64,000 nucleotides of DNA. Source: a bacterium. Its GTDB lineage: Bacteria > Bdellovibrionota_C > UBA2361 > SZUA-149 > JAEUWB01. The stretch lies in contig JAEUWB010000045.1 in the NCBI GenBank assembly GCA_016786595.1, positions 62,001-126,000 of the forward strand. Reading direction: 5' to 3'. Numbering within the stretch: position 1 is the first letter of the stretch; the number at the start of each line of letters is the position of its first letter. The notes beneath the pieces were generated by a model. The model saw only the letters and a list, made by a program, of their open reading frames with translations, had not been told where the DNA came from and searched no databases. The position numbers were made by a program, and so were the translations under genes. Below, piece by piece: positions 31,798-63,309 of the stretch.

Positions 31798-32616
31798 CTA
31801 ACAGCAGCCTCCTTTGGGTTTTCCATCTGGGCCAAGCTGGTGTGCAGCATGTGGCCCGAGGACACGGTGCGGGTGGACCTGGTCTGGATGAGCATGGGCA
31901 AGTAGTTCAATCGGACAACCATAGACTTTTTCAAACACATCGTGTGGAATTTCCCCTTGCCCGTGAAAATGTAAGCACTTATTGAGACAGGCAATTGTTT
32001 TCACATATTTCGCAATTACCCCGATATCATGCGAGACCAGGATAATGCTTAACTCTTGAGCAAGTTCTTCGAGTAGCTGGTAAAGCCCTTGACCACGCGG
32101 CAAATCAAGATTTGCCGTTGGCTCATCGAGTAACAAAAGCTTTGGTTTAAGCACTAAGGCCCGAGCGATTAGTGTGCGCTGTAATTCCCCGCCCGAGATT
32201 TTGCCAATTTCTCTCTTACTCAGAGATTCGAGTTCTAAGCGCTTGAGGCTTTCTTCGACACGATCCCTTTTTTCCTTCGCACTTAAAGTTTTAAGGGCAA
32301 GTGTGCTCATCTCGACCACTGCCCGAACTGTGATTGGAAAAGTTCTGTCAAATGAAGCAAATTGTGGCACGTAGCCGATTAAGCCACGCGCGGCAGTGAC
32401 GCTTTTGCCAAAGATTTCAATCGTGCCAGTGCTTGGTGTGATTAGTCCGAGGAGCGTTTTTAAAAAAACAGATTTACCTGCCCCGTTTGGTCCAATAATC
32501 CCGACAAAAGAATTTGCTTCAAGATTAAAACTTATATCTTCGAGAATCACCCTACCACCGAGCGTTACGCTTAGATCTTTCACGGTTAGATCGTTTACAG
32601 TGGGGGTTGTTTCCAT
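31798..32616 (-). CDS. Metal ABC transporter ATP-binding protein (ZnuC-like)
   Basis: A 272-residue ABC ATPase. Walker A is GPNGAGKSVFLKTLLG (about residues 41-56), Q-loop YVPQFASFD, signature ISGGELQRTLIARAL and Walker B LLLLDEPTANLDLP, then the switch His in LVSHDIGV. The C-terminus has an extra His/Cys-rich tail (HAHPDQVHPHRVLGPHAAH, ending GGCC), which suggests binding of a transition metal. It powers the adjacent ABC-3 permease; zinc is the most likely substrate, manganese or iron possible. Confidence 0.93.
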   Translation of the reverse strand: METTPTVNDLTVKDLSVTLGGRVILEDISFNLEANSFVGIIGPNGAGKSVFLKTLLGLITPSTGTIEIFGKSVTAARGLIGYVPQFASFDRTFPITVRAVVEMSTLALKTLSAKEKRDRVEESLKRLELESLSKREIGKISGGELQRTLIARALVLKPKLLLLDEPTANLDLPRGQGLYQLLEELAQELSIILVSHDIGVIAKYVKTIACLNKCLHFHGQGEIPHDVFEKVYGCPIELLAHAHPDQVHPHRVLGPHAAHQLGPDGKPKGGCC

Positions 32617-32630
32617 TTTTGCTTTGCTTA

Positions 32631-33515
32631 CTAGGAAGCTGCCTGAGTTAGTAAGATCGTCATTAACTCTATATTCTTAGCATAATCTGGGGCTAAGGGA
32701 TCAATCACCTGAACCGAGCCCACTTTAGCGCTAGTTCCAAGTTTTTGTGCAATTTGGCGAGCGTTTTCAACCGGAATTTGTGGCTCAATAAAAACAGTTC
32801 GTAAACCTTCGGCTCGTGAAGTTTCAATTAATTTGTCGAGGTACTTTATGCTTGGCTCCTTGCCATGTTCCTCAATCGGAATTTGTTTGAGGCCATATTG
32901 CTCGGCAAAGTAACCCCAGGCTGGGTGAAAAACAATAAATGACTTTAGCTTTAAATTTTTAAGGCGTTCTCTGGTTAGTAGATCGAGGCTCTTGATTCCG
33001 GCAACAACCGTATTTAAGCGCTTCTCAATTTCACTTTGTTTTTCTGGAAAAATTTTAATTAGTTCGGCCGTTGAATAGCGCACAAGTTTCAACATATTTA
33101 AGGGCGCAAGCCAAAGATGGGCATCCTCTGAGTTTAGACTTGCAAACTCGCCAATATTATTGACGACTTTGATTGAAGGGTTTTGCGCTTGCGTGTATTC
33201 AAGCCACTTCTTTTCAGCCGCAAGATTCTCATGGCCAAGTATCACCAAAACTTTTGCAGCAGCTAGATTGTTGACTGTAGCTAAATTTGGCTCAAAAACT
33301 TCATGACCCTGATTTGCAGTTAGTAGCGACACGAAATCATACTCTGAGCCAAAAATCTCAGCTAAATAATTAGCCAGTGGAGGAAGCGAGACCAAGACGA
33401 CAGGTTTTAATTGACGAGGAGGTTCTTGACAGCCTGCTAGAAAAATAAAACAGCAAATAATGCCGAGTAGGTAAAGACAGCCATTAAGATAAGACTTGTC
33501 ATCGCGAGGGAGCAT
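32631..33515 (-). CDS. Metal ABC transporter substrate-binding lipoprotein (ZnuA-like)
   Basis: About 294 residues from the ATG at 33515. The frame is open to 33626, but the added N-terminus (SSRAKRGNLPQSG) is a translated intergenic repeat, so the shorter start is chosen; it gives a normal lipoprotein signal with lipobox FLAGC (about residue 29). Likely metal ligands: His in NQGHEVFEP, His in DAHLWLAP, His in FHPAWGYFAEQYG and the acidic residue near VFIEPQIP. The His-rich loop of many ZnuA proteins is absent. It delivers metal to the permease encoded downstream. Confidence 0.9.
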   Translation of the reverse strand: MLPRDDKSYLNGCLYLLGIICCFIFLAGCQEPPRQLKPVVLVSLPPLANYLAEIFGSEYDFVSLLTANQGHEVFEPNLATVNNLAAAKVLVILGHENLAAEKKWLEYTQAQNPSIKVVNNIGEFASLNSEDAHLWLAPLNMLKLVRYSTAELIKIFPEKQSEIEKRLNTVVAGIKSLDLLTRERLKNLKLKSFIVFHPAWGYFAEQYGLKQIPIEEHGKEPSIKYLDKLIETSRAEGLRTVFIEPQIPVENARQIAQKLGTSAKVGSVQVIDPLAPDYAKNIELMTILLTQAAS

Positions 33516-33600
33516 CGGCGATCGTGGCGCCCTGTTAATTATTACGGGCAGCAATGCTGGCCCGCTCTGCGGGAGATTGCCACGCTTCGCTCGCGATGAC
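33498..33600. repeat. Dispersed GTCATCGCGAG palindromic repeat
   Basis: Ends GTCATCGCGAG (33498-33508) and CTCGCGATGAC (33590-33600) are perfect inverses; GATTGCCACGC and GGCGATCGTGGC form inner arms. It is the same broad family as 27171-27282 but with C in place of T in GTCATYGCGAG. It overlaps the start of the binding-protein gene and fills the gap to secA. Confidence 0.8.
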
Positions 33601-33625
33601 AGTTGTTGAGAGTTCCGTAAACACA

Positions 33626-36304
33626 TTAACGATTGCGGCGCTTAGTTTTTCTGCTTTCTCGTGCCAGGCGACGGCGGTCGTGGCGGTTCCCAGAAAGCTC
33701 TTCTTCGTTTTTTTCTTCAGGATTTTGAGAACTTGCCCCAGGCAGTTCCTCATGAATTGTCGCCGCACGCTTCTCTTGTTCTTCCTGATGGCGACGTTCC
33801 CGTTCTTCTAATTCTCTAATTTCTTGATCACTTGGAAGTTCTGGCACATAGACGTGCTGAGTTACAGCAGTCTTGACTGAGTGCATCATGCTAGTGAACA
33901 TATCAAAAGCTTCTTTTTGATACTCCTGTAGTGGATTTTTCTGGCCATAGCCGCGAAGTCCAATGCCTTCTCTGAGGTGTTCCATATTTGTCAGGTGTTC
34001 TTTCCAGAAATGATCAAGCGCTTGTAGAAATACAATTCGAGCCAGCTTATCTAAGCGGTCTTGGCCGAAATGTGTGGCGCGCTCTGCCAGGCGCGAAAGC
34101 GCAATTTCATGCGCATGATCATAAATTTCTTGGGCAAATTCTTTACCGGCATGCTCTTGCCTGTCTTTTAATTCCTCACGTGGCAAATCTACTCCGAAGA
34201 TATTTTTGAAACTGTCAAAAATCCCTTGCAAATTCCACTCAAATGTAGGGATTTTTTCGTCAGCATGTAGCATCACGATATTTTCGATGACATCTCCCGC
34301 CATTTGCTCGATTTCTTCGCGGACTCCCACGGATCGTAGAATTTTATTACGTAAAGAATAAACAACTTCACGCTGCTTATTCATCACATCATCATATTCA
34401 ATCAGGTGCTTACGAATATCGAAATGATAGCCTTCAACTTTCTTTTGGGCGCGTTCAATCGAAGCTGCTACGATTTTACCTTCAACGGCATCATCTTCAT
34501 TCACGCCAACGCGTTCCATGAAGGCTTGCATTTTGTCACCACCGAAGCGCTTCATTAAGTCATCCTGTAGGGAAACGTAAAACCTGGATGATCCCGGGTC
34601 GCCTTGACGGCCTGCTCGCCCACGCAGCTGATTGTCGATGCGGCGGCTTTCATGACGCTCGGTGCCAAGCACATGTAGCCCGCCTGCAGCGATTACTTCT
34701 GCGTGCTCGGCCTCGCACTCGGCGCGATATTTGACTAATGCAGCTTGAAAATTTGGGTCTGCTGGATCCTTAGTCTCTGCTTCAGCTGCCGCTAAAAATT
34801 CAGCATTACCCCCAAGCAAAATATCAGTTCCACGGCCGGCCATGTTTGTAGAGATTGTCACTGCCCCGAGGCGCCCAGCTTGCGCGATAATCTCTGCTTC
34901 ACGCTCATGGTTTTTAGCGTTAAGCACATTATGCTCAATGCCACGCTCACTTAGCATTTTAGCAATCAATTCGGACTTTTCAATGCTTGCAGTGCCAACA
35001 AGTACGGGCTGCCCCTTTTCATGGAGCTCTTCAATTTCATCGCAGACAGCACGAAGTTTTCCGCGCTCGGCCGGGAAAACTACATCGGGGTTATCTGTGC
35101 GCACCATGGGCTTATTGGGCGGGACAACGACAACATCAAGCTTATAAATTTTCTTTAATTCAACAGCTTCCGTGTCTGCTGTGCCTGTCATACCGGAGAG
35201 TTTTTTGTAAAGCCGGAAATAATTTTGAAATGTAATTGTCGCTAAGGTTTGATTTTCCTGCTGGATTTTTACCCCTTCTTTAGCTTCAATTGCTTGATGT
35301 AGTCCATCGGACCATCTGCGTCCGGGCATCATGCGTCCCGTAAATTCATCGACAATAATAATCTGGCCGCCGCGCACAACATATTCAACATCACGATTCA
35401 TCGTTGCATGGGCTTTTAGGGCTTGAGTTACATGGTGAACGGTCTGGGTGTTTTGCAGATCGTAAAGATTGTTTATTTCCAGGAGCTCTTCAACGCGCTT
35501 TACGCCTTCATCGGTCAGTAAGACCTGTTTAGATTTGAGCTCAACCGTGAAATCACGATCAACTGAAAGTTTGCGCACAATTTTATCTGCTTGAAGATAT
35601 GATTCAGTTGCATCATCAGCTGGACCAGAGATAATTAAAGGTGTGCGCGCCTCGTCAATTAGAATCGAGTCGACTTCGTCAACGACGGCAAAGTTATGCG
35701 GCCGCTGCACCATTTCTTCCAGTTCAAGCTTCATATTATCGCGCAGATAATCAAAACCAAACTCGTTATTTTGACCGTAGGTAATGTCGGCATTGTAGGC
35801 GATCTTACGTTCACTATGCCCCATGCTATGCACGACAACGCCAGTAGAAAGTCCGAGGAAAGAATAAATTCGACCCATCCACTCGGAGTCACGTTTTGCC
35901 AGATAATCGTTAACGGTGACCACATGCACTCCAAGTCCAGAGAGTGCGTTAAGGTATGCTGGTAGAGTCGCGACAAGGGTTTTACCTTCGCCGGTTTTCA
36001 TTTCAGCAACTTTGCCTTGGTGCAGAATAATCCCGCCAAGTAGCTGCACATCGAAGTGCCGCATGCCCAGCACTCGCTTAGAAGCTTCGCGAACTGCAGC
36101 AAATGCTTCAGGCAGGACCTCGTCTAATGTTTCACCTTTACTGAGGCGTGATTTTAATTCGAGTGTTACTTGTTGCAAGTCGCTATCGGACTTTTGTTGC
36201 ATTGTTGATTCGAAAGTATTAATCCGTTCAACAATCGGCCAAAGGCGCCTAAGTTCGCGTTCATTTTTTGATCCAAAAATTTTATATACAAGTGATTTAA
36301 TCAC
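33626..36304 (-). CDS. secA: Preprotein translocase ATPase SecA
   Basis: An 892-residue motor that drives unfolded proteins through SecYEG. Walker A is in [14 protein letters not shown] (about residue 100), Walker B in [19 protein letters not shown], then [25 protein letters not shown] and [13 protein letters not shown]. The C-terminal linker is acidic and ends in a basic stretch ([20 protein letters not shown]). The usual zinc-binding CxC...CH tail that binds SecB is absent. The SplB-like gene lies 3 nt upstream, so the two may share a transcript. Confidence 0.97.
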
Positions 36305-39486: not shown

Positions 39487-39522
39487 TTTCAAGGAACCCT
39501 TTAAATCAAGGGTTCCTTGAAA
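39487..39522. terminator. Strong hairpin between converging genes
   Basis: Perfect 15-bp arms TTTCAAGGAACCCTT (39487-39501) and AAGGGTTCCTTGAAA (39508-39522) with a 6-nt loop. The right arm encodes the last residues of the ATPase (FKEP). No T-run follows, so it may work as a bidirectional end signal or mRNA-stabilising stem. Confidence 0.6.
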
Positions 39523-41738
39523 TCAGCACTCTCTAAATTATTTTTCTTCAATTCTTCTCTGCTTAGAAGTTTTTTCCCTGACTTAAAGCCCGGTGCTAAA
39601 ATTTGCTCGACCTCTTTAAGCGGCCGCGCGTAATTTGCACGTGAGAAGTTTATACAGGCAGCACAAAAATTTTCTGCAGGTGGCTTAATCGTCAAGGTTT
39701 TGCCTGAAAAAGCCTCCCTAACCTCGCCGTCAATTGAGATTTTGGTAATAAAATCTCGCACCCCAAGATTAATAATATCACGTGGACTAAAGCGTGGCTT
39801 AAACTCTAAACTTAAGTGCTCAGCATCTTCAGCGCCAACGCGAAACGTAACAAGCGAGCCAACGTTGCCAAACACAGTGCTACGCATCTTTTCATCAAGC
39901 TGACCCAGGAATTGATTGGCAATTGTTAAATTTAAGCGATATTTACGTGCTTCGCTTAAGATTTCACCAAAAGTTTCAGTAGCAAAATTTTGAAACTCAT
40001 CAACATAGAGATAGTAGTCGCTGCGTTGATTTTCTGGCGTATCTGCTCGCGAGAGCGCCGCTTGATAGAACTTTGTGACTGCGATTGCTCCGAGCAGTGA
40101 GGCATTTTCTTCGCCAAGAATTCCTTTGGAGATTTTCATCAAGAGGATTTTTTTCCGATCCATGATTTCTCGGAAATTAAAACGGTTAACTGGCTGACCG
40201 ACAATATTTCTGATCATATTTGTAGCCACAAATTGCCCGACTTTGTTGATTAGCGGAGTAATGGCTTCGCTATCGAATTTTTCAGACCAACCCGCAAATT
40301 CCGTAGTCCAAAAACTTTTTACCACTTGGTCTTTACAGTTGCTGACAATAATTTGGCGAAATTGCTTGTCAGTCAGCATTTGTAGAATTGAAAGCACTGA
40401 CGTGCCTGGCGTATCGAGTAAGGCCAATGTGGTGTAACGCAGCACGTGCTCTAGCCGTGGGGTCCAATTTGATCCGAAGAGTTTTTTAAAAATTTCAATA
40501 AATCCAAGCGTCACCCGCATTTTTAATTCCTCAGGGACCTGCTCGAGAGGATTAAAACTTGCTGGATACTCGAGATCGGCAGGATTAAAAATAATCACAT
40601 CTTGAATACGACGCTCAGGAATGTAGCTTAGAATATTATCTACCAAGTCTCCATGTGGATCGATCACGGCAACCCCTTGCCCATGCATAATATCGTTACG
40701 AATTAAAAGCTCTAGTAATTTTGACTTACCCGAGCCAGATTTACCTGAAATGTATAAGTGCCTGCGGCGATCGTTACGCTTGATGCCAAAAATCGTTTTT
40801 TGATCGCGATAATTTGTAGCCCCGAAGAATGATATCTCTGGATCGCGTTTGTCGCTGGGCAGTTCTTTTGGCGGAGCCTGTCTAGTCGAGAGCACATGCA
40901 CTACATTGGGAAAGTCTTTCTCACTTGGTAAGTGAAATAATCCAGCCAACTCTTGAGTTGAAAGCAAGTAAGGACTTACTAACTTTCGTGCCAGAAATGC
41001 TCCAGGAATATGGCGATATTTTTTCTTAGTAAATTGATTTAAATCAAGTGTGTTGAAATTTGAAAGCGCTCCATCAAGTGCAGCAGCAATTGGATTGAGG
41101 TCTAAATCAGTGTCAGTATTATGCTTAACTGCCTGAATAATAATTCTCAAATTTGCGTAATATAGACGTTTGCGACTTTTCTCACTCAGCCGCCCAAGGA
41201 TTGTTGCAGCTAGTCCGCGCTTAAACCAATACTTAGGAATGCACTTAAGTGTCAGGGCAATTAATTTTTTCCACAGTTCTACGCGTAGATAGTAGAGCGC
41301 ACTTTCCTCGGCAGGCTTAAGCAGAATCTGATAGACGATACTGACCTCGGGCAGACAACGCGACAATGCACTCAGTAGGCTTGCCAATGAATCACCTTGA
41401 AACTCGCTATAATCTTTGAGAGGCAAAAGTTGGTTATGCTTAAGCCTGTAGTCCAGCGCAAGTGATTGTGTTTGGCTACTGAGCTTGTCTAATTCTAAGA
41501 AGTCTTTAGCTGTCTTGATATTGGCACTGGGTGCATGGGCATAAAGCAGTCCCTTAGTTAGCTCACTTACAGCTGGAGATTTTGTAGCAAATCCAAATGA
41601 CACGTTCTGAGACGTTGCCGCAATTTCAAAGGCAATTTCTTGCTGCTGTAATGCTTCGTGCAAGCGCGAGAAAAAATCATCGAAGATTTCCGCTGGCGTT
41701 GCTTCAGATTGAGGAATTTCGATTAGTGAATTGATCAT
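39501..41738 (-). CDS. VirD4/HerA-like type IV secretion-family ATPase
   Basis: A 745-residue P-loop ATPase of the VirD4/TraG/HerA class. Walker A is SGKSGSGKSKLLELL (about residue 333), followed by GVAVIDPHGDLVDNIL. Walker B is YYLYVDEFQNFATETF (about residue 578), and ANQFLGQL is a typical sensor block. An N-terminal domain of about 270 residues has no clear membrane segments, unlike classical coupling proteins. Relatives are common in CPR and other uncultured genomes, annotated as conjugative DNA transfer ATPases. No relaxase or pilus genes are near. Its start overlaps the stop of the Cys-rich gene by 4 nt, so the pair is translated together. Confidence 0.85.
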   Translation of the reverse strand: MINSLIEIPQSEATPAEIFDDFFSRLHEALQQQEIAFEIAATSQNVSFGFATKSPAVSELTKGLLYAHAPSANIKTAKDFLELDKLSSQTQSLALDYRLKHNQLLPLKDYSEFQGDSLASLLSALSRCLPEVSIVYQILLKPAEESALYYLRVELWKKLIALTLKCIPKYWFKRGLAATILGRLSEKSRKRLYYANLRIIIQAVKHNTDTDLDLNPIAAALDGALSNFNTLDLNQFTKKKYRHIPGAFLARKLVSPYLLSTQELAGLFHLPSEKDFPNVVHVLSTRQAPPKELPSDKRDPEISFFGATNYRDQKTIFGIKRNDRRRHLYISGKSGSGKSKLLELLIRNDIMHGQGVAVIDPHGDLVDNILSYIPERRIQDVIIFNPADLEYPASFNPLEQVPEELKMRVTLGFIEIFKKLFGSNWTPRLEHVLRYTTLALLDTPGTSVLSILQMLTDKQFRQIIVSNCKDQVVKSFWTTEFAGWSEKFDSEAITPLINKVGQFVATNMIRNIVGQPVNRFNFREIMDRKKILLMKISKGILGEENASLLGAIAVTKFYQAALSRADTPENQRSDYYLYVDEFQNFATETFGEILSEARKYRLNLTIANQFLGQLDEKMRSTVFGNVGSLVTFRVGAEDAEHLSLEFKPRFSPRDIINLGVRDFITKISIDGEVREAFSGKTLTIKPPAENFCAACINFSRANYARPLKEVEQILAPGFKSGKKLLSREELKKNNLESADFKEPLI

Positions 41739-43411
41739 TGGGCTTCAGTTTTTTCTGTTTGTTGCTTCCAAACCTGAGCTTGATAGCACTCCATGCATAA
41801 GGTCTGAGCTTGGGGTAGCAGGAGGTGGGCACTATTAATGTTAGAGTTACATTTTTTACATTGCCCTAGGCTTAACTTACGCATGGTGCGTAAGCACATA
41901 CGGAGTTCGTGACGCCTGTCGGGACAGAGCTTGGAAAGCGGCAAGCCCTCTTGACGATAAAATGCAAGTTCTTGTGGGATAATTCGATAAGCCTTTCCAG
42001 AATCAGCGCAACTAAATTGTTGCTCTAAAATTTGGTTTTCTACTGCACTAATATTTTCAAAATTCAAGTGGGGCTTAGAGAATCTTACTTCGCTGGTAGT
42101 TTCATTTTTCCAGTGTAGCCCACGCTTTTCTGCTTCAGCTTGGCTTAGCGGTAGATACTCATTAGCAATGGATTCGTTATACGCAAAAGGCGCATCTTTT
42201 AATGGAAAAAACTCACCCCACTCGCCACGTTGATGCATTGCCGCGATTAGTTTTGCTTTAACTTCAAAGTATTTTTCTTTTGTATATTGCTGATTGAGAA
42301 TGCAATAGGCAGCGTTACGTAATCCATTACAACCAAATAAATCATGCGAACCATAGCAGTGCTCAGAGTAATAGACATCATAGCAATTATTAATTACTTG
42401 TGAATAATAGACGCGTTCTGCATTAAAAAGTGTCAGCGCATCGACGCAGTAGCGGGTTGGCGAGCCAGTAAACGAAATATCAGCTGAATTTTCAACACCC
42501 CAAACCGTAAAACAGTGACTTGCGCACTCGGATTTTTTTGCATCAAAGCAATTTTCTAGATCTTTTGCCTCGTAAAGATGATTCCCCGAAACGTTTTCAA
42601 CTTGTGAACCAAAAAACTCTGGATAACTAGCTTGTGGCATTGCTGCTTGAACGAGCCACTCCATTCCCTGTCGCACGGCTCCATCTGTAAGTGGGAAGAT
42701 TTTATCCAGCCGTTTAAAATATTCGTCTGCCGTGCATTGCTCGCCAAAGAAGCAGTATTCGGCATTTCTTAAATTTACCCCGCCAAAGCAATGCTTGCAG
42801 TTTTGACAATCAAAGAGAAAGTAGCAATTTTGACAATTAATTGCTTCAAGTGAGTAGAAAACTTTATAGCAATTTACGATATCAACTGAGTGTGCTGAAA
42901 GCTCTGAGCGATAGGCATAAAGACAATCAATACAGTCTCTTGAATCCCAGACAATGTGCCCATAGAGGCAGTCTTCATTGCGCACGCAACCAAATACTAG
43001 ATAGCAATTCTTCGATTCAAAGGCGAAGTTCGAATAATCGCTATTTTCGCACTTTACATTAAGTAGTCCGTAGTGCGGCACCACTTCAGCCAATGCTCGA
43101 TATTGATCAAAAAAGGACTGGCTTAAGTCTAAATCCCGAGCATAGTCTTTTGCATCCCAGGCATCAGACCACCACCATGCGTTATCCACTACCACGCGCG
43201 GAGACTGGGGATGATACATCGAGATTAATGCTTTTTGGGTTTTGGAGCATTGACGGTGATAAAGACTTCTAAAGTTTCTATGCCCGATACGCCTGCGTAA
43301 TCGCTCCTCAGGGCATAATGTTGGTGGGTTAAGGCCCAGTGAATCATAGAGGCTTAAGTCTCTGTCACTTATAGTAAAATTTGTATTTGTAAGCAGACAG
43401 TTTTTGGTCAT
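41735..43411 (-). CDS. Cysteine-rich beta-helix-like repeat protein with zinc-ribbon ends
   Basis: A 558-residue protein. Residues about 125-370 are imperfect repeats of roughly 20-25 residues with NCY/DC motifs (FESKNCYLVFGCVRNEDCLY, IVNCYKVFYSLEAINCQNCY, FGCNGLRNAAYCILNQQY), suggesting a right-handed beta-helix with stacked Cys. The C-terminal end has a CxxC...CxxC zinc ribbon (QCKKC, CMECY). The N-terminus (PTLCPEERLRRRIGHRN) aligns in my memory with a zinc ribbon whose second Cys of each knuckle is lost here. Such proteins are frequent in CPR bacteria with no known function. It is coupled to the VirD4-like ATPase. Confidence 0.8.
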   Translation of the reverse strand: MTKNCLLTNTNFTISDRDLSLYDSLGLNPPTLCPEERLRRRIGHRNFRSLYHRQCSKTQKALISMYHPQSPRVVVDNAWWWSDAWDAKDYARDLDLSQSFFDQYRALAEVVPHYGLLNVKCENSDYSNFAFESKNCYLVFGCVRNEDCLYGHIVWDSRDCIDCLYAYRSELSAHSVDIVNCYKVFYSLEAINCQNCYFLFDCQNCKHCFGGVNLRNAEYCFFGEQCTADEYFKRLDKIFPLTDGAVRQGMEWLVQAAMPQASYPEFFGSQVENVSGNHLYEAKDLENCFDAKKSECASHCFTVWGVENSADISFTGSPTRYCVDALTLFNAERVYYSQVINNCYDVYYSEHCYGSHDLFGCNGLRNAAYCILNQQYTKEKYFEVKAKLIAAMHQRGEWGEFFPLKDAPFAYNESIANEYLPLSQAEAEKRGLHWKNETTSEVRFSKPHLNFENISAVENQILEQQFSCADSGKAYRIIPQELAFYRQEGLPLSKLCPDRRHELRMCLRTMRKLSLGQCKKCNSNINSAHLLLPQAQTLCMECYQAQVWKQQTEKTEAQ

Positions 43412-43501: not shown

Positions 43502-45223
43502 ATGAGCTTCAGTTCAAACACATCTCGAGTTAGCATCGGGCAGGCAAAAATTTTGCATCGAGAAGATGCGGGAGCATTTTCGCTTGCTGATGAAGTTATG
43601 TCTAAACTGACACTAAGATTTTCCACCAATTCAACTCCTGAACTTCAAGCGGTGTGCTTCCGCCACGTCTTACTAGGTGTTGAAGAAAGACGCTCAATGC
43701 GGGGGAAAAATGGTGGCGCATTTAACGAGCGCTTTACCTTTCAATGGACTTCAGCGGTTCAAGCGACGGCACTTTTAATTTTAAAAGCAAAGCTAAATTT
43801 ACTTAACGGTGAAACTGAAGAGGCCTTTATTGAAGGTGCACAAGGCAGCTTTGCAGCTTCGCTAGACTATGCATTAACAAAGCAGCCACGCTGGCTCGAG
43901 GAGATTTTTGGAAGAGACCGGCGCGATAATTTAATTGCTTTACGCTTATTTCGGCGCAGCAATAGTGAGCGTAAAAATGGCGGATTAGTGCGCATTGCCC
44001 TCAACCAGCAGATGCTACCATATGACCGCATTCAAATCCTTGGTCGCGACCGCGAATTAGTTCAAGCCCTAGAGTTTGACCAGTTGATTCTAGCAATTCA
44101 GCGCAACTGGGAAATTCATGGTAACGTTAAGACTACTGCAAGTGATTCATTGCTTGGATTAAAGGCACAAACCCCGGCAGCAGCAGCTCTTGAGCAGGAA
44201 CGAAAAATCATTGCGGCAGAGTTATGCCGCGATACTGTATCAATGCTTAAGCACACAGATATTTTTGATCCAAAATTCATCACTGCAAGCCTGAGAGGTC
44301 TCTACCAAAGTCCTTCATTTATGAAAGTACTCGGTAGGGATAAAGACAAACTTTTTAGGATACTTTCTGAAGTTAACCACTCACTCCTCGTCAGTGAGCG
44401 TCTTGGTATCGAGGATAATATTTTTGCTGAGCGCATTTTAGATCGCAAAGAACCGCTTTATTTTGCTGCACCTGCTAGCGCGCCTGCAACCTGGCCACTC
44501 TTAATGTACCTCAAAGATGTTCGTGCTTATAATTTAGTACTTGAATATCGTTTTCCTCACGCAATCGACATTGTGCGACGCTTCCTTAAGGGCCAATTCA
44601 CGCGCCTTCCAGACATCTGTATTTTGGGAATTGGGCCCACCGGGACCTTACTTGCCCGAGACCAAGGCAAGACCTATCGACCACTGATGCTGATGCCCGC
44701 TTTAAGTCATCGTATGCTTGCGCCGGAAGAAGCATTAAACAATAAAAAAGAAAACTCAGCTGCCCAGATTTCTTATCTCAAAGATGATCCTTCAACTTCT
44801 TCTTTTTATTACGACAGCCTTGTTTCTAGTGGAGCAGTGCCGGGGAGAAAGTTTAAGACTTTTCACATGGAACCTGATGAAGCTGCAAAAGTACTTGCTA
44901 CGGGCGATCCAGAGCGCCGGGCGATTTTATTCTTTCCACACTATGCGCTCAATCAAGCCTATAATCGCACAGTCACTTTAGATCAGGAAAATAATCCTGC
45001 ACGCCTGCAAGAGTCAGTTTTATTTGTGCATCAACGTATTTATGAAGATCAGAAACTCTGTCAGGCAATTGAGATTGCGATCCGTAATGCCTGGCTTACT
45101 TTGAGTGCTGACCATGCTTTGCTTGAAGAGCTCGTGCAGCGCTTGTCGAGCAATGATGAATTTATTCGCTTTTTGCTGCGTATTTCTGGCACACAGTACA
45201 TGCGTAACGCAGGAAATGGATAA
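43502..45223 (+). CDS. Orphan protein of unknown function, divergent from the Cys-rich/ATPase operon
   Basis: A 573-residue cytoplasmic-looking protein with no signal peptide and no family I recognise. It appears alpha-helical in the first 300 residues (EERRSMRGKNGGAFNERFTF, KQPRWLEEIFGRDRRDN). A more mixed C-terminal half contains ICILGIGPTGTLLARDQGK (about residue 375) and AILFFPHYALNQAYN. The GxGxxG-like stretch hints at a nucleotide-binding turn, but no Rossmann pattern follows clearly. It starts 90 nt from the Cys-rich gene on the opposite strand, so a shared control region is possible. The 180-bp gap after it shows nothing. Confidence 0.7.
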   Translation: MSFSSNTSRVSIGQAKILHREDAGAFSLADEVMSKLTLRFSTNSTPELQAVCFRHVLLGVEERRSMRGKNGGAFNERFTFQWTSAVQATALLILKAKLNLLNGETEEAFIEGAQGSFAASLDYALTKQPRWLEEIFGRDRRDNLIALRLFRRSNSERKNGGLVRIALNQQMLPYDRIQILGRDRELVQALEFDQLILAIQRNWEIHGNVKTTASDSLLGLKAQTPAAAALEQERKIIAAELCRDTVSMLKHTDIFDPKFITASLRGLYQSPSFMKVLGRDKDKLFRILSEVNHSLLVSERLGIEDNIFAERILDRKEPLYFAAPASAPATWPLLMYLKDVRAYNLVLEYRFPHAIDIVRRFLKGQFTRLPDICILGIGPTGTLLARDQGKTYRPLMLMPALSHRMLAPEEALNNKKENSAAQISYLKDDPSTSSFYYDSLVSSGAVPGRKFKTFHMEPDEAAKVLATGDPERRAILFFPHYALNQAYNRTVTLDQENNPARLQESVLFVHQRIYEDQKLCQAIEIAIRNAWLTLSADHALLEELVQRLSSNDEFIRFLLRISGTQYMRNAGNG

Positions 45224-61578: not shown

Positions 61579-63309
61579 CTATGAAATTTTAATAAAAATT
61601 GTAGCAGCAACTATAATCGCAAATGAAGCAATCAAGGACCAGCGCATTGCAACTTGTGGGGTATGTAAGCGTAGACCTTGTTGTTGGGTAATTGCTAAAA
61701 TATTACTAACCAGCCAGTAAAGAGTTACTCCTGCAGGGAAACTTGCAAACATAAAGCCAAAAATAAATGGCATGATCAGCATCGCTTTCTTTTGTGCAGG
61801 CTCCATGTTGGAAGGCATGGTCCATTGTTGAATTAACATGGAGGCAATCATCAGCAGTACCATCACCGGCACACCAACACCTGCTAGATGCAGTTTTTCT
61901 GGTGCCGACAAATCCTGAATCCAGAGTGCAAATGGCGCGTGCCTAAGTTCAATGCCAAGTAAGAGCGCTGAATAAAGTCCAATGAAAATTGGAAACTGTA
62001 ATAACATTGGGAAACATCCGCCGAGTGGGTTGACGCCACGGCTACGATAAAGTTCCATCAACTGCGTTTGCTGAGCTCGAGCATCCTTAACTGTTTCGCG
62101 CAGGCGTTTAACTTCAGGCTGAATATCTTGCATTGCCTTCATTTGTTTAAACGAGGCAGTATTCAACGGGAAGCTTGCTAACTTCACTAGAATTGTCAGG
62201 AGGATAATCGCCAGGCCATAATTTCCGACTAGTTTATAAAAGGCATTAAGCAGCCAGAGTAGTGGTGCCGAAAGAAAAGCAACTTTTCCAAAATCAATAT
62301 TACGCTGCAATTCACTACCTGCTGAACTCAAAATGGAGTAGTTTTTAGGCCCAATCCAAAGCTTGAAATTGCCCTCAGTCTCCCCGCCCTTGAGCTTCAG
62401 TGAGTGAATATGATTGTCTACAGCAACATTACTTTCAGTGGGCTCACTTGCAAGATTGAGGATTGTTGAAACAAAATATTTATTTGAGATTGAAACCCAG
62501 CGTACGTTTCCGGGACTAAATACTTGACCTTCAATTTCGTTGACCTTCTTATGAAAGGCCTTTTGCCCGTCAAACCAATTAAATGTGGTGATGTCATATG
62601 GGTCGAGCAGCGAATTTGAAGCTTGCGTAATAGCTTTTGTCCATTCAAGCGTGGTGCGGTTTCGCGCAGAGTCAGGCGCAGAAGTTTGAACCTTGCAATT
62701 AAACCCATAGCCAAGCCCAAAGAATGTCAGCGTTTTAGTGATGCTCCGCCCGTCTGGCAAATTACCGGTAAAGGCAATATTTTTCTCAGCGCTTCCTGAA
62801 ATCTTAAAGCCCTCTGTTTCTGAAGCTAGATACTGCACATAGCGATCGTCTGTTGCTCCCTGAGAAATCCCCAGTGGATAAGCTTGCCCTTCGATATGCA
62901 ACACGGCCTCGTAATCAGCGCTATTTTTTTGGACAGTTTCTTTGTAATTTTTAAATTTAACAGAGGTAACTCGTGCTCCGAGTTTTGAAATCGTAACTAT
63001 TAGGTCATCGGTTTCAATGCGAATAAATCCTACTTGGGCGATTTCGCCGTCGGTTGGGGCGAGGTGCTTAGTTGTTGGAGCTTCAGCTGAGGTTTGTCCG
63101 ACAGTTGGATTTGCTGTTGCTGAGCTTGTTACAGTAGCTGATACGGGTTGCGTGCCTTGGCTTGCTGGTTCGATTTGTCCAGTTTGACTTTGCGGGATTT
63201 GGGGTTGGATTTTAGATTTGAGGTAAGGGTCTAAAATTGTCGTTTTGTAGATAAAAAACAGACAAAGACAAATTAAAATCGCAAAAATTCGTTTACTATT
63301 TTGTTCCAT
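61579..63309 (-). CDS. yidC: Membrane protein insertase YidC
   Basis: A 576-residue insertase of the Gram-negative type: N-terminal helix (about residues 8-22), a Gln/Ser/Thr-rich linker (about 35-85), a large periplasmic beta domain (about 90-345) and the conserved five-helix core. Core marks are FPLNTASFKQMKAMQDIQPE, GVNPLGGCFPMLLQFPIFIG and MPFIFGFMFASFPAGVTLYW. The hydrophilic-groove Arg is probably in the segment KLASFPLN/LRETVKD. It inserts and folds inner-membrane proteins with or without SecYEG, and notably the c subunit of ATP synthase. Confidence 0.97.
   Translation of the reverse strand: MEQNSKRIFAILICLCLFFIYKTTILDPYLKSKIQPQIPQSQTGQIEPASQGTQPVSATVTSSATANPTVGQTSAEAPTTKHLAPTDGEIAQVGFIRIETDDLIVTISKLGARVTSVKFKNYKETVQKNSADYEAVLHIEGQAYPLGISQGATDDRYVQYLASETEGFKISGSAEKNIAFTGNLPDGRSITKTLTFFGLGYGFNCKVQTSAPDSARNRTTLEWTKAITQASNSLLDPYDITTFNWFDGQKAFHKKVNEIEGQVFSPGNVRWVSISNKYFVSTILNLASEPTESNVAVDNHIHSLKLKGGETEGNFKLWIGPKNYSILSSAGSELQRNIDFGKVAFLSAPLLWLLNAFYKLVGNYGLAIILLTILVKLASFPLNTASFKQMKAMQDIQPEVKRLRETVKDARAQQTQLMELYRSRGVNPLGGCFPMLLQFPIFIGLYSALLLGIELRHAPFALWIQDLSAPEKLHLAGVGVPVMVLLMIASMLIQQWTMPSNMEPAQKKAMLIMPFIFGFMFASFPAGVTLYWLVSNILAITQQQGLRLHTPQVAMRWSLIASFAIIVAATIFIKIS

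Follow-up and report, generated by a model that had tools for sequence, protein, structure and literature searches.

Analysis of a 64,000-nt window (positions 62,001 to 126,000 of contig JAEUWB010000045.1, assembly GCA_016786595.1, from a bacterium of the Bdellovibrionota_C) revealed two overlapping minus-strand genes that belong to a widespread and undescribed bacterial gene partnership, in which one motor goes with a family of cysteine-rich coil proteins. The window lies within a 128.9-kb contig of a 2.58-Mb genome with a completeness of 96.8%. The upstream gene (41735–43411) is an open reading frame (ORF) for a 558-residue protein with 32 cysteines, the Cys-solenoid protein, whose family was traced by tblastn and profile searches in relatives and in the candidate phyla radiation (CPR). 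The downstream gene (39501–41738), assigned from its ORF and Pfam matches, encodes a 745-residue VirD4/HerA-class ATPase. Stop and start codons share the four nucleotides ATGA (41735–41738, minus strand), as expected for translational coupling, and the gene boundaries are those given in a preliminary description of the locus. A search of the literature outside subscription journals turned up no publication on this Cys family.

The strongest sign of an interaction between the two proteins, overlooked in that description, is a short peptide at the end of the ATPase. In an alignment of the Cys-linked ATPases, a variable linker is followed by a motif, F-x-E-P-[LIM]-[ILV], that is conserved at the very C-terminus. 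In the window protein it reads ESADFKEPLI, and residues 719–745 (39504–39584, minus strand) form a predicted disordered linker and putative docking tail, with predicted local distance difference test (pLDDT) values of 35–45 in an otherwise confident AlphaFold 2 (AF2) fold. The tail is found in 37 of 79 distinct ATPases, every one from the Cys-linked subfamily; among these 79 it is absent from homologs in Cys-less genomes of the same taxonomic class and from CPR paralogs. With one ATPase taken per genome, and a tail scored as an end of the form x-P-[LIMFV]-[ILVMF] (which includes the window's ...DFKEPLI), 39 genomes have both tail and Cys genes, none the tail only, two Cys genes only and 39 neither. 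For L218, one of the 39 with both, the assignment was made by hand, as an apparent frameshift places its tail in the next reading frame. Among evenly drawn CPR genomes that played no part in motif discovery, the tail is present in all four that possess the family, and 25 Cys-less loci show neither feature. Two further genomes of the class also lay outside motif discovery: G069 was picked up by its Cys genes and then found to be tail-bearing, and the Cys-less G075 is tail-less. The confinement of the tail to genomes with Cys-solenoid proteins thus suggests that the two are probably one machine. In the ATPase homolog of another Cys-less genome (G036, L030:1417-4140), a fused C-terminal leucine-rich repeat (LRR) takes the tail's place, which is a hint that the tail serves as a docking element.

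Linkage of the genes was assessed in 31 genomes, mostly CPR, that were reached from Cys loci, the ATPase most similar to that of the window being taken in each (30 loci); because these genomes were chosen for having Cys genes, the figures describe linkage, not frequency. At 25 of these 30 loci the ATPase homolog has a Cys gene no more than 1.5 kb away, and the Cys genes so placed, 31 in total, are all co-directional with it, so the outcome that the preliminary description had named as refuting its proposal, genes rarely adjacent elsewhere, was not observed. A further linked case, G064, comprises a contig-edge ATPase fragment with a Cys gene ~0.6 kb away. In 20 loci of Cys-bearing genomes with paralogous VirD4-type ATPases, no Cys gene was found within ~3 kb of the paralog; for one of these loci (L175) the ortholog with its Cys gene is also present, further off. 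Linkage is not universal, as five genomes of the window's order (G003, G004, G010, G013 and G014) have Cys genes and no orthologous ATPase.

The best matches to the Cys protein among 84,980 genomes are nearly all in CPR (Gracilibacteria, Peregrinibacteria, Peribacteria, Nomurabacteria and others), in agreement with the preliminary description. In the window's class the family occurs in 14 of 46 genomes, with at least 25 copies in G001 and G069. Cys genes form co-oriented tandem runs, in which 166 of 170 consecutive pairs share a strand and the median gap is 63 nt. The CPR genomes searched hold 2–29 Cys copies each and a single tail-bearing ATPase, so the pair is not the one-to-one, two-component system that had been suggested. 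At 29 of 77 loci (for example L074, L080, L083, L119 and L133) TrmB-type regulators stand within the Cys arrays, in most cases oriented divergently from the Cys gene. The arrays have no recurrent neighbour with a defence role, such as a nuclease or methylase. A phage or mobile-element origin was rejected: 50,697 phage records gave no Cys match and viral contigs one partial match, while ATPase matches in phages and plasmids are distant only. Two metagenome-assembled genomes (MAGs) may carry wrong labels: one labelled Micrarchaeota (G068, L135) has 16 Cys genes and no close ATPase, and a 0.9-Mb one labelled Nitrospirota (G053, L096) contains a Cys/ATPase cluster.

The layout of the Cys protein, described here for the first time, is symmetric, with treble-clef zinc modules at both ends and two homologous solenoids between them. 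The window protein follows the order of the CPR family (zinc module, solenoid, cap, solenoid, cap, zinc module), and all of its parts are given here on the minus strand. The N-terminal module (residues 1–65, 43217–43411) has lost the second Cys in each of three pairs (C5..T8, C33..E36 and C55..T58), and aligns to the C-terminal module (residues 466–545, 41777–42016), where the ribbon is intact (CKKC 518–521, CMEC 539–542); hhalign identifies the two modules as homologous (99.8%, E 4.5e-30). Solenoid A (residues 121–224, 42740–43051) consists of 12-residue coils with an inward Cys or small residue at each third position (autocorrelation at 3/9/12), its inward phase being 42% Cys, 68% C/S/A/G and 3% charged, and is followed by a helical cap (residues 225–258, 42638–42739; model helices 228–238 and 243–257). 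Solenoid B (residues 273–373, 42293–42595) and its helical cap (residues 374–396, 42224–42292; helix 378–395), the latter among the most conserved regions, are recognised by hhalign as homologs of solenoid A with its cap (99.9%, E 2.8e-34). An AF2 model built from an alignment of 51 homologs reached a pLDDT of 84.5 and a predicted template modelling score (pTM) of 0.88; this confident model and the 12-residue period fit the earlier prediction of a repeat coil. The three-residue recurrence of Cys or small residues in 12-residue coils runs throughout the 51 homologs, so the Cys ladder is not a chance pattern.

No known fold could be assigned, since Foldseek found nothing in the PDB at E<5 and only weak zinc-ribbon matches in a viral library. 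The protein matches nothing in Pfam or PADLOC and has one NCBIfam match, below threshold. In the family at large, the zf_Tbcl-type treble clefs PF23477 and PF13451 match the ends of 23 and 8 of 51 members, respectively, and the solenoid core belongs to no Pfam family; the ends of the window protein, which has lost half of its N-terminal ligands, match neither. The preliminary description was correct that the N-terminal zinc knuckles lack their second Cys and that the C-terminal ribbon is intact, but this is not peculiar to the present bacterium: the CPEE-type N-terminal module also occurs in the closest orthologs and in a Gracilibacteria protein, thus indicating an old feature of that subgroup. 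A hydropathy scan detected no transmembrane segment in the window protein. The 12-residue coils of the Tenebrio antifreeze protein (1ezg) also point C/S/A inwards. Its profile match to the Cys solenoid is weak (E 0.87) and does not demonstrate relatedness, and it differs in being a secreted, disulfide-bonded ice binder without zinc modules.

A C-terminal CxxC...CxxC ribbon (CKKC...CMEC in the window) is present in 199 of 230 CPR members, and in the window's order its presence largely follows that of the ATPase. The Cys proteins of the five genomes named above without an orthologous ATPase have no C-terminal ribbon, whereas the ribbon is kept in the Cys proteins examined from G000, G001, G002, G008 and G012, where the tail-bearing ATPase is present. 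This joint absence hints that the tail may dock on the C-terminal zinc module. Three single-copy, ribbon-less Cys orthologs from genomes without the ATPase (L055, L056 and L057) are accompanied by genes of the phosphatidylserine decarboxylase and hemC type. The window ATPase nests among Gracilibacteria-type CPR ATPases in the tree (support 100). Among the Cys proteins, one from Gracilibacteria comes about as close to that of the window (47–48%) as those of order relatives do. Both proteins point to CPR, the simplest reading being a joint transfer into the diderm lineage that was followed by co-loss of tail and Cys genes in other orders.

The earlier assignment of the ATPase to the type IV secretion class (VirD4/HerA) is supported by Pfam matches to T4SS-DNA_transf (PF02534, E 9e-10), DUF87 (7e-7) and TrwB_AAD_bind (7e-5). 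Its Walker A motif, GKSGSGKS (residues 332–339, 40722–40745, minus strand), is near-invariant in 33 homologs, and in the Walker B region around VDEF (residues 576–582, 39993–40013, minus strand) D580 is invariant and E581 near-invariant. The AF2 model (pLDDT 88.9) resembles VirB4, HerA and TrwB in Foldseek searches. With the VirD4/TrwB coupling proteins the ATPase shares the P-loop motor, Walker A/B and TraG/TraD-C signatures, and the TM-score against TrwB is 0.66 by target length. In contrast to them, it features an extra N-terminal domain and the unique C-terminal F-x-E-P-L-I tail, and lacks an N-terminal membrane segment; hydropathy predicts no transmembrane segment anywhere in the window form, and one in only 1 of 37 tail-bearing ATPases. 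No relaxase or pilus gene was seen among the neighbouring ORFs by reading and Pfam, a context already noted in the preliminary description; for relaxases this covers the neighbourhood and not the genome as a whole. The VirB4-type family PF03135 has zero matches in the window genome and likewise in eight of nine order relatives. The available text of a survey of Patescibacteria (PMC12102498, Microb Genom 2025) reports 5,713 VirD4-type proteins in 2,918 genomes, 148 of them near virB4, and leaves exaptation of the orphan homologs possible. These orphans belong to the same organisms and are likewise VirD4-type ATPases remote from virB4; that text gives no partner for them, whereas in the present data the Cys-solenoid link and the tail mark out one subfamily.

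The ATPase also recalls the HerA systems with NurA, Sir2 or DUF4297, in which a soluble HerA-superfamily ring with a matching structure works with a separately encoded partner. That partner is a nuclease or NADase, whereas here it is a multi-paralog Cys solenoid; no nuclease, Sir2 or DUF4297 partner was seen in the window and none recurs in the CPR loci. The ATPase scores 10.4 bits with the HerA equivalog NF040819 (cut-off 970), and its PADLOC matches, to mad8 (E 1.7e-14) and HerA, are weak, other MADS genes having been judged by reading the neighbouring ORFs only. Matches to the ATPase (E 1e-55) and, at a weak level, to the Cys solenoid (E 4e-4) come from two unannotated phage protein families, phrog_5156 and phrog_15341.

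A mechanism is proposed in which the ATPase and the Cys proteins form one mostly cytosolic machine, with the motor as a hub that takes up, by its tail, zinc-bracketed solenoid adaptors that can replace one another; we consider the case for it evenly balanced. The ATPase would be an orphan motor of the VirD4/HerA superfamily that left conjugation, probably hexameric as its family suggests, and its predicted disordered linker would then present up to six copies of the F-x-E-P-L-I peptide per ring. Co-occurrence and the joint loss of ribbon and ATPase suggest that the tail recruits the Cys solenoids most likely via their C-terminal zinc module. Many interchangeable solenoids could serve one motor, the solenoid faces choosing clients that the motor would pull, unfold or move, and the window would represent the minimal version, with a single solenoid whose gene is translationally coupled to that of a single motor. 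In Parcubacteria (L263 and L265–L268) Cys/ATPase clusters are found between dnaK and dnaJ or next to these genes, in Peribacteria-type genomes (L172, L174 and L176–L179) hrcA is immediately followed by tail-less paralogous ATPases, and most solenoid proteins are acidic (mean net charge −5.9; window protein −10). As a consequence, proteins are weakly favoured over DNA as the substrate. Membrane work is possible in those CPR whose motor follows a membrane-anchored N-domain protein, as at L261, L262, L264 and L102. There the tail-bearing ATPase is short and preceded by such a protein of ~450 residues. These loci represent a split form of the motor, and three of them have an added ~170–260-residue transmembrane protein.

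Several observations weigh against a single machine of this kind. The tail/Cys association goes back to about two changes that are independent of each other: the tree requires just three in all, and its two concordant independent pairs are too few for a phylogenetic sign test to reach significance. Conservation of the motif across deep splits is the better argument. G059 (L167) has Cys genes and no tail, and the tail of L153 is degenerate. The Cys proteins of G009 carry the ribbon and its ATPase was not found in a 300-contig assembly, and the Cys gene of G007 is truncated. In four Parcubacteria loci a second, tail-less ATPase lies inside the same cluster as the Cys genes. The membrane-anchored N-domain proteins that precede some CPR motors imply that 'cytosolic' may not hold everywhere, and the heat-shock gene links are limited to a few related lineages.

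The motor fold, which matches HerA and TrwB, the weak PADLOC matches and the Arg-rich treble-clef zinc modules would also fit a DNA-handling or defence system, in which the ATPase translocates DNA as HerA or TrwB does, binding of nucleic acid or of invader features falls to the zinc modules and solenoids, and the arrays provide diversity of recognition. This is rather unlikely, as the solenoids are mostly acidic, the arrays lack a recurrent nuclease, methylase or other defence partner, and the loci are chromosomal, with copies of the family essentially absent from phages. A single coupling-type ATPase facing many diverging tandem paralogs could also reflect a receptor and its effector repertoire, with the Cys solenoids as cargo (effectors or surface proteins) fed by the VirD4-like ATPase to an envelope channel; the type IV secretion systems and many VirD4-type proteins reported in Patescibacteria (PMC12102498, available text) and the membrane-anchored proteins of some CPR clusters are consistent with this. 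We regard it as unlikely, however, given that PF03135 is missing from the window genome and nearly all of its order relatives, that neither window protein has a transmembrane segment, that so few Patescibacteria VirD4 homologs lie near virB4 according to the same text, and that the conserved tail sits on the ATPase rather than on the cargo.

The few independent tail/Cys changes would also be explained if the two families merely co-travel in CPR islands without physical interaction and were moved jointly into the window's lineage, the tail serving another partner. Joint transfer would produce the nesting of the ATPase with the Gracilibacteria type alongside a similarly close Gracilibacteria Cys protein, and several order members do retain Cys genes without the ATPase. 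Nevertheless, the tail is kept in very divergent lineages after variable linkers, which calls for a partner common to all of them, neighbouring Cys genes are always co-directional, and ribbon and ATPase were lost together; such a shared neighbourhood without interaction is thus unlikely.

If the ATPase and the Cys proteins do form one machine, two 'hypothetical' families would become one testable system, with the window organism as its one-plus-one version, and a subset of the orphan Patescibacteria VirD4-like ATPases (PMC12102498, available text) is now linked to a candidate partner. In the CPR lineages searched, a family with up to 29 copies per genome now has a domain architecture, and the eight-residue motif and the zinc ribbon are points at which its link to the ATPase can be probed. 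A broader proposal, which we hold to be doubtful, sees here a categorically new kind of modular motor. Each cell would have a single VirD4-type ring bearing as many as six tails, into which any zinc-capped Cys solenoid of a repertoire would plug; this machine would handle proteins (unfolding, sorting or holding them) in CPR and would have been passed to a diderm lineage.

Adjacent ORFs in the window, judged by reading and Pfam, are housekeeping and envelope genes (SecA, spore photoproduct lyase, cyclophilin, PBP1 and ZnuA/ABC). Divergent from the Cys gene is a plus-strand gene, here gene X (43502–45223), which encodes a 573-residue protein of unknown family with no Pfam match. Within the order, its homologs border the Cys orthologs nearest to that of the window (G001, G007, G008, G009 and G012). 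Gene X as a third obligate component was dropped, because its family is class-wide and is also found where Cys genes are absent. The N-terminal domain of the gene X product also occurs in many stand-alone ~190-residue proteins across the class. At 31798–33626, ~8 kb from the Cys gene, a ZnuA-type metal-binding protein and an ABC ATPase are encoded, which likely constitute a zinc importer.

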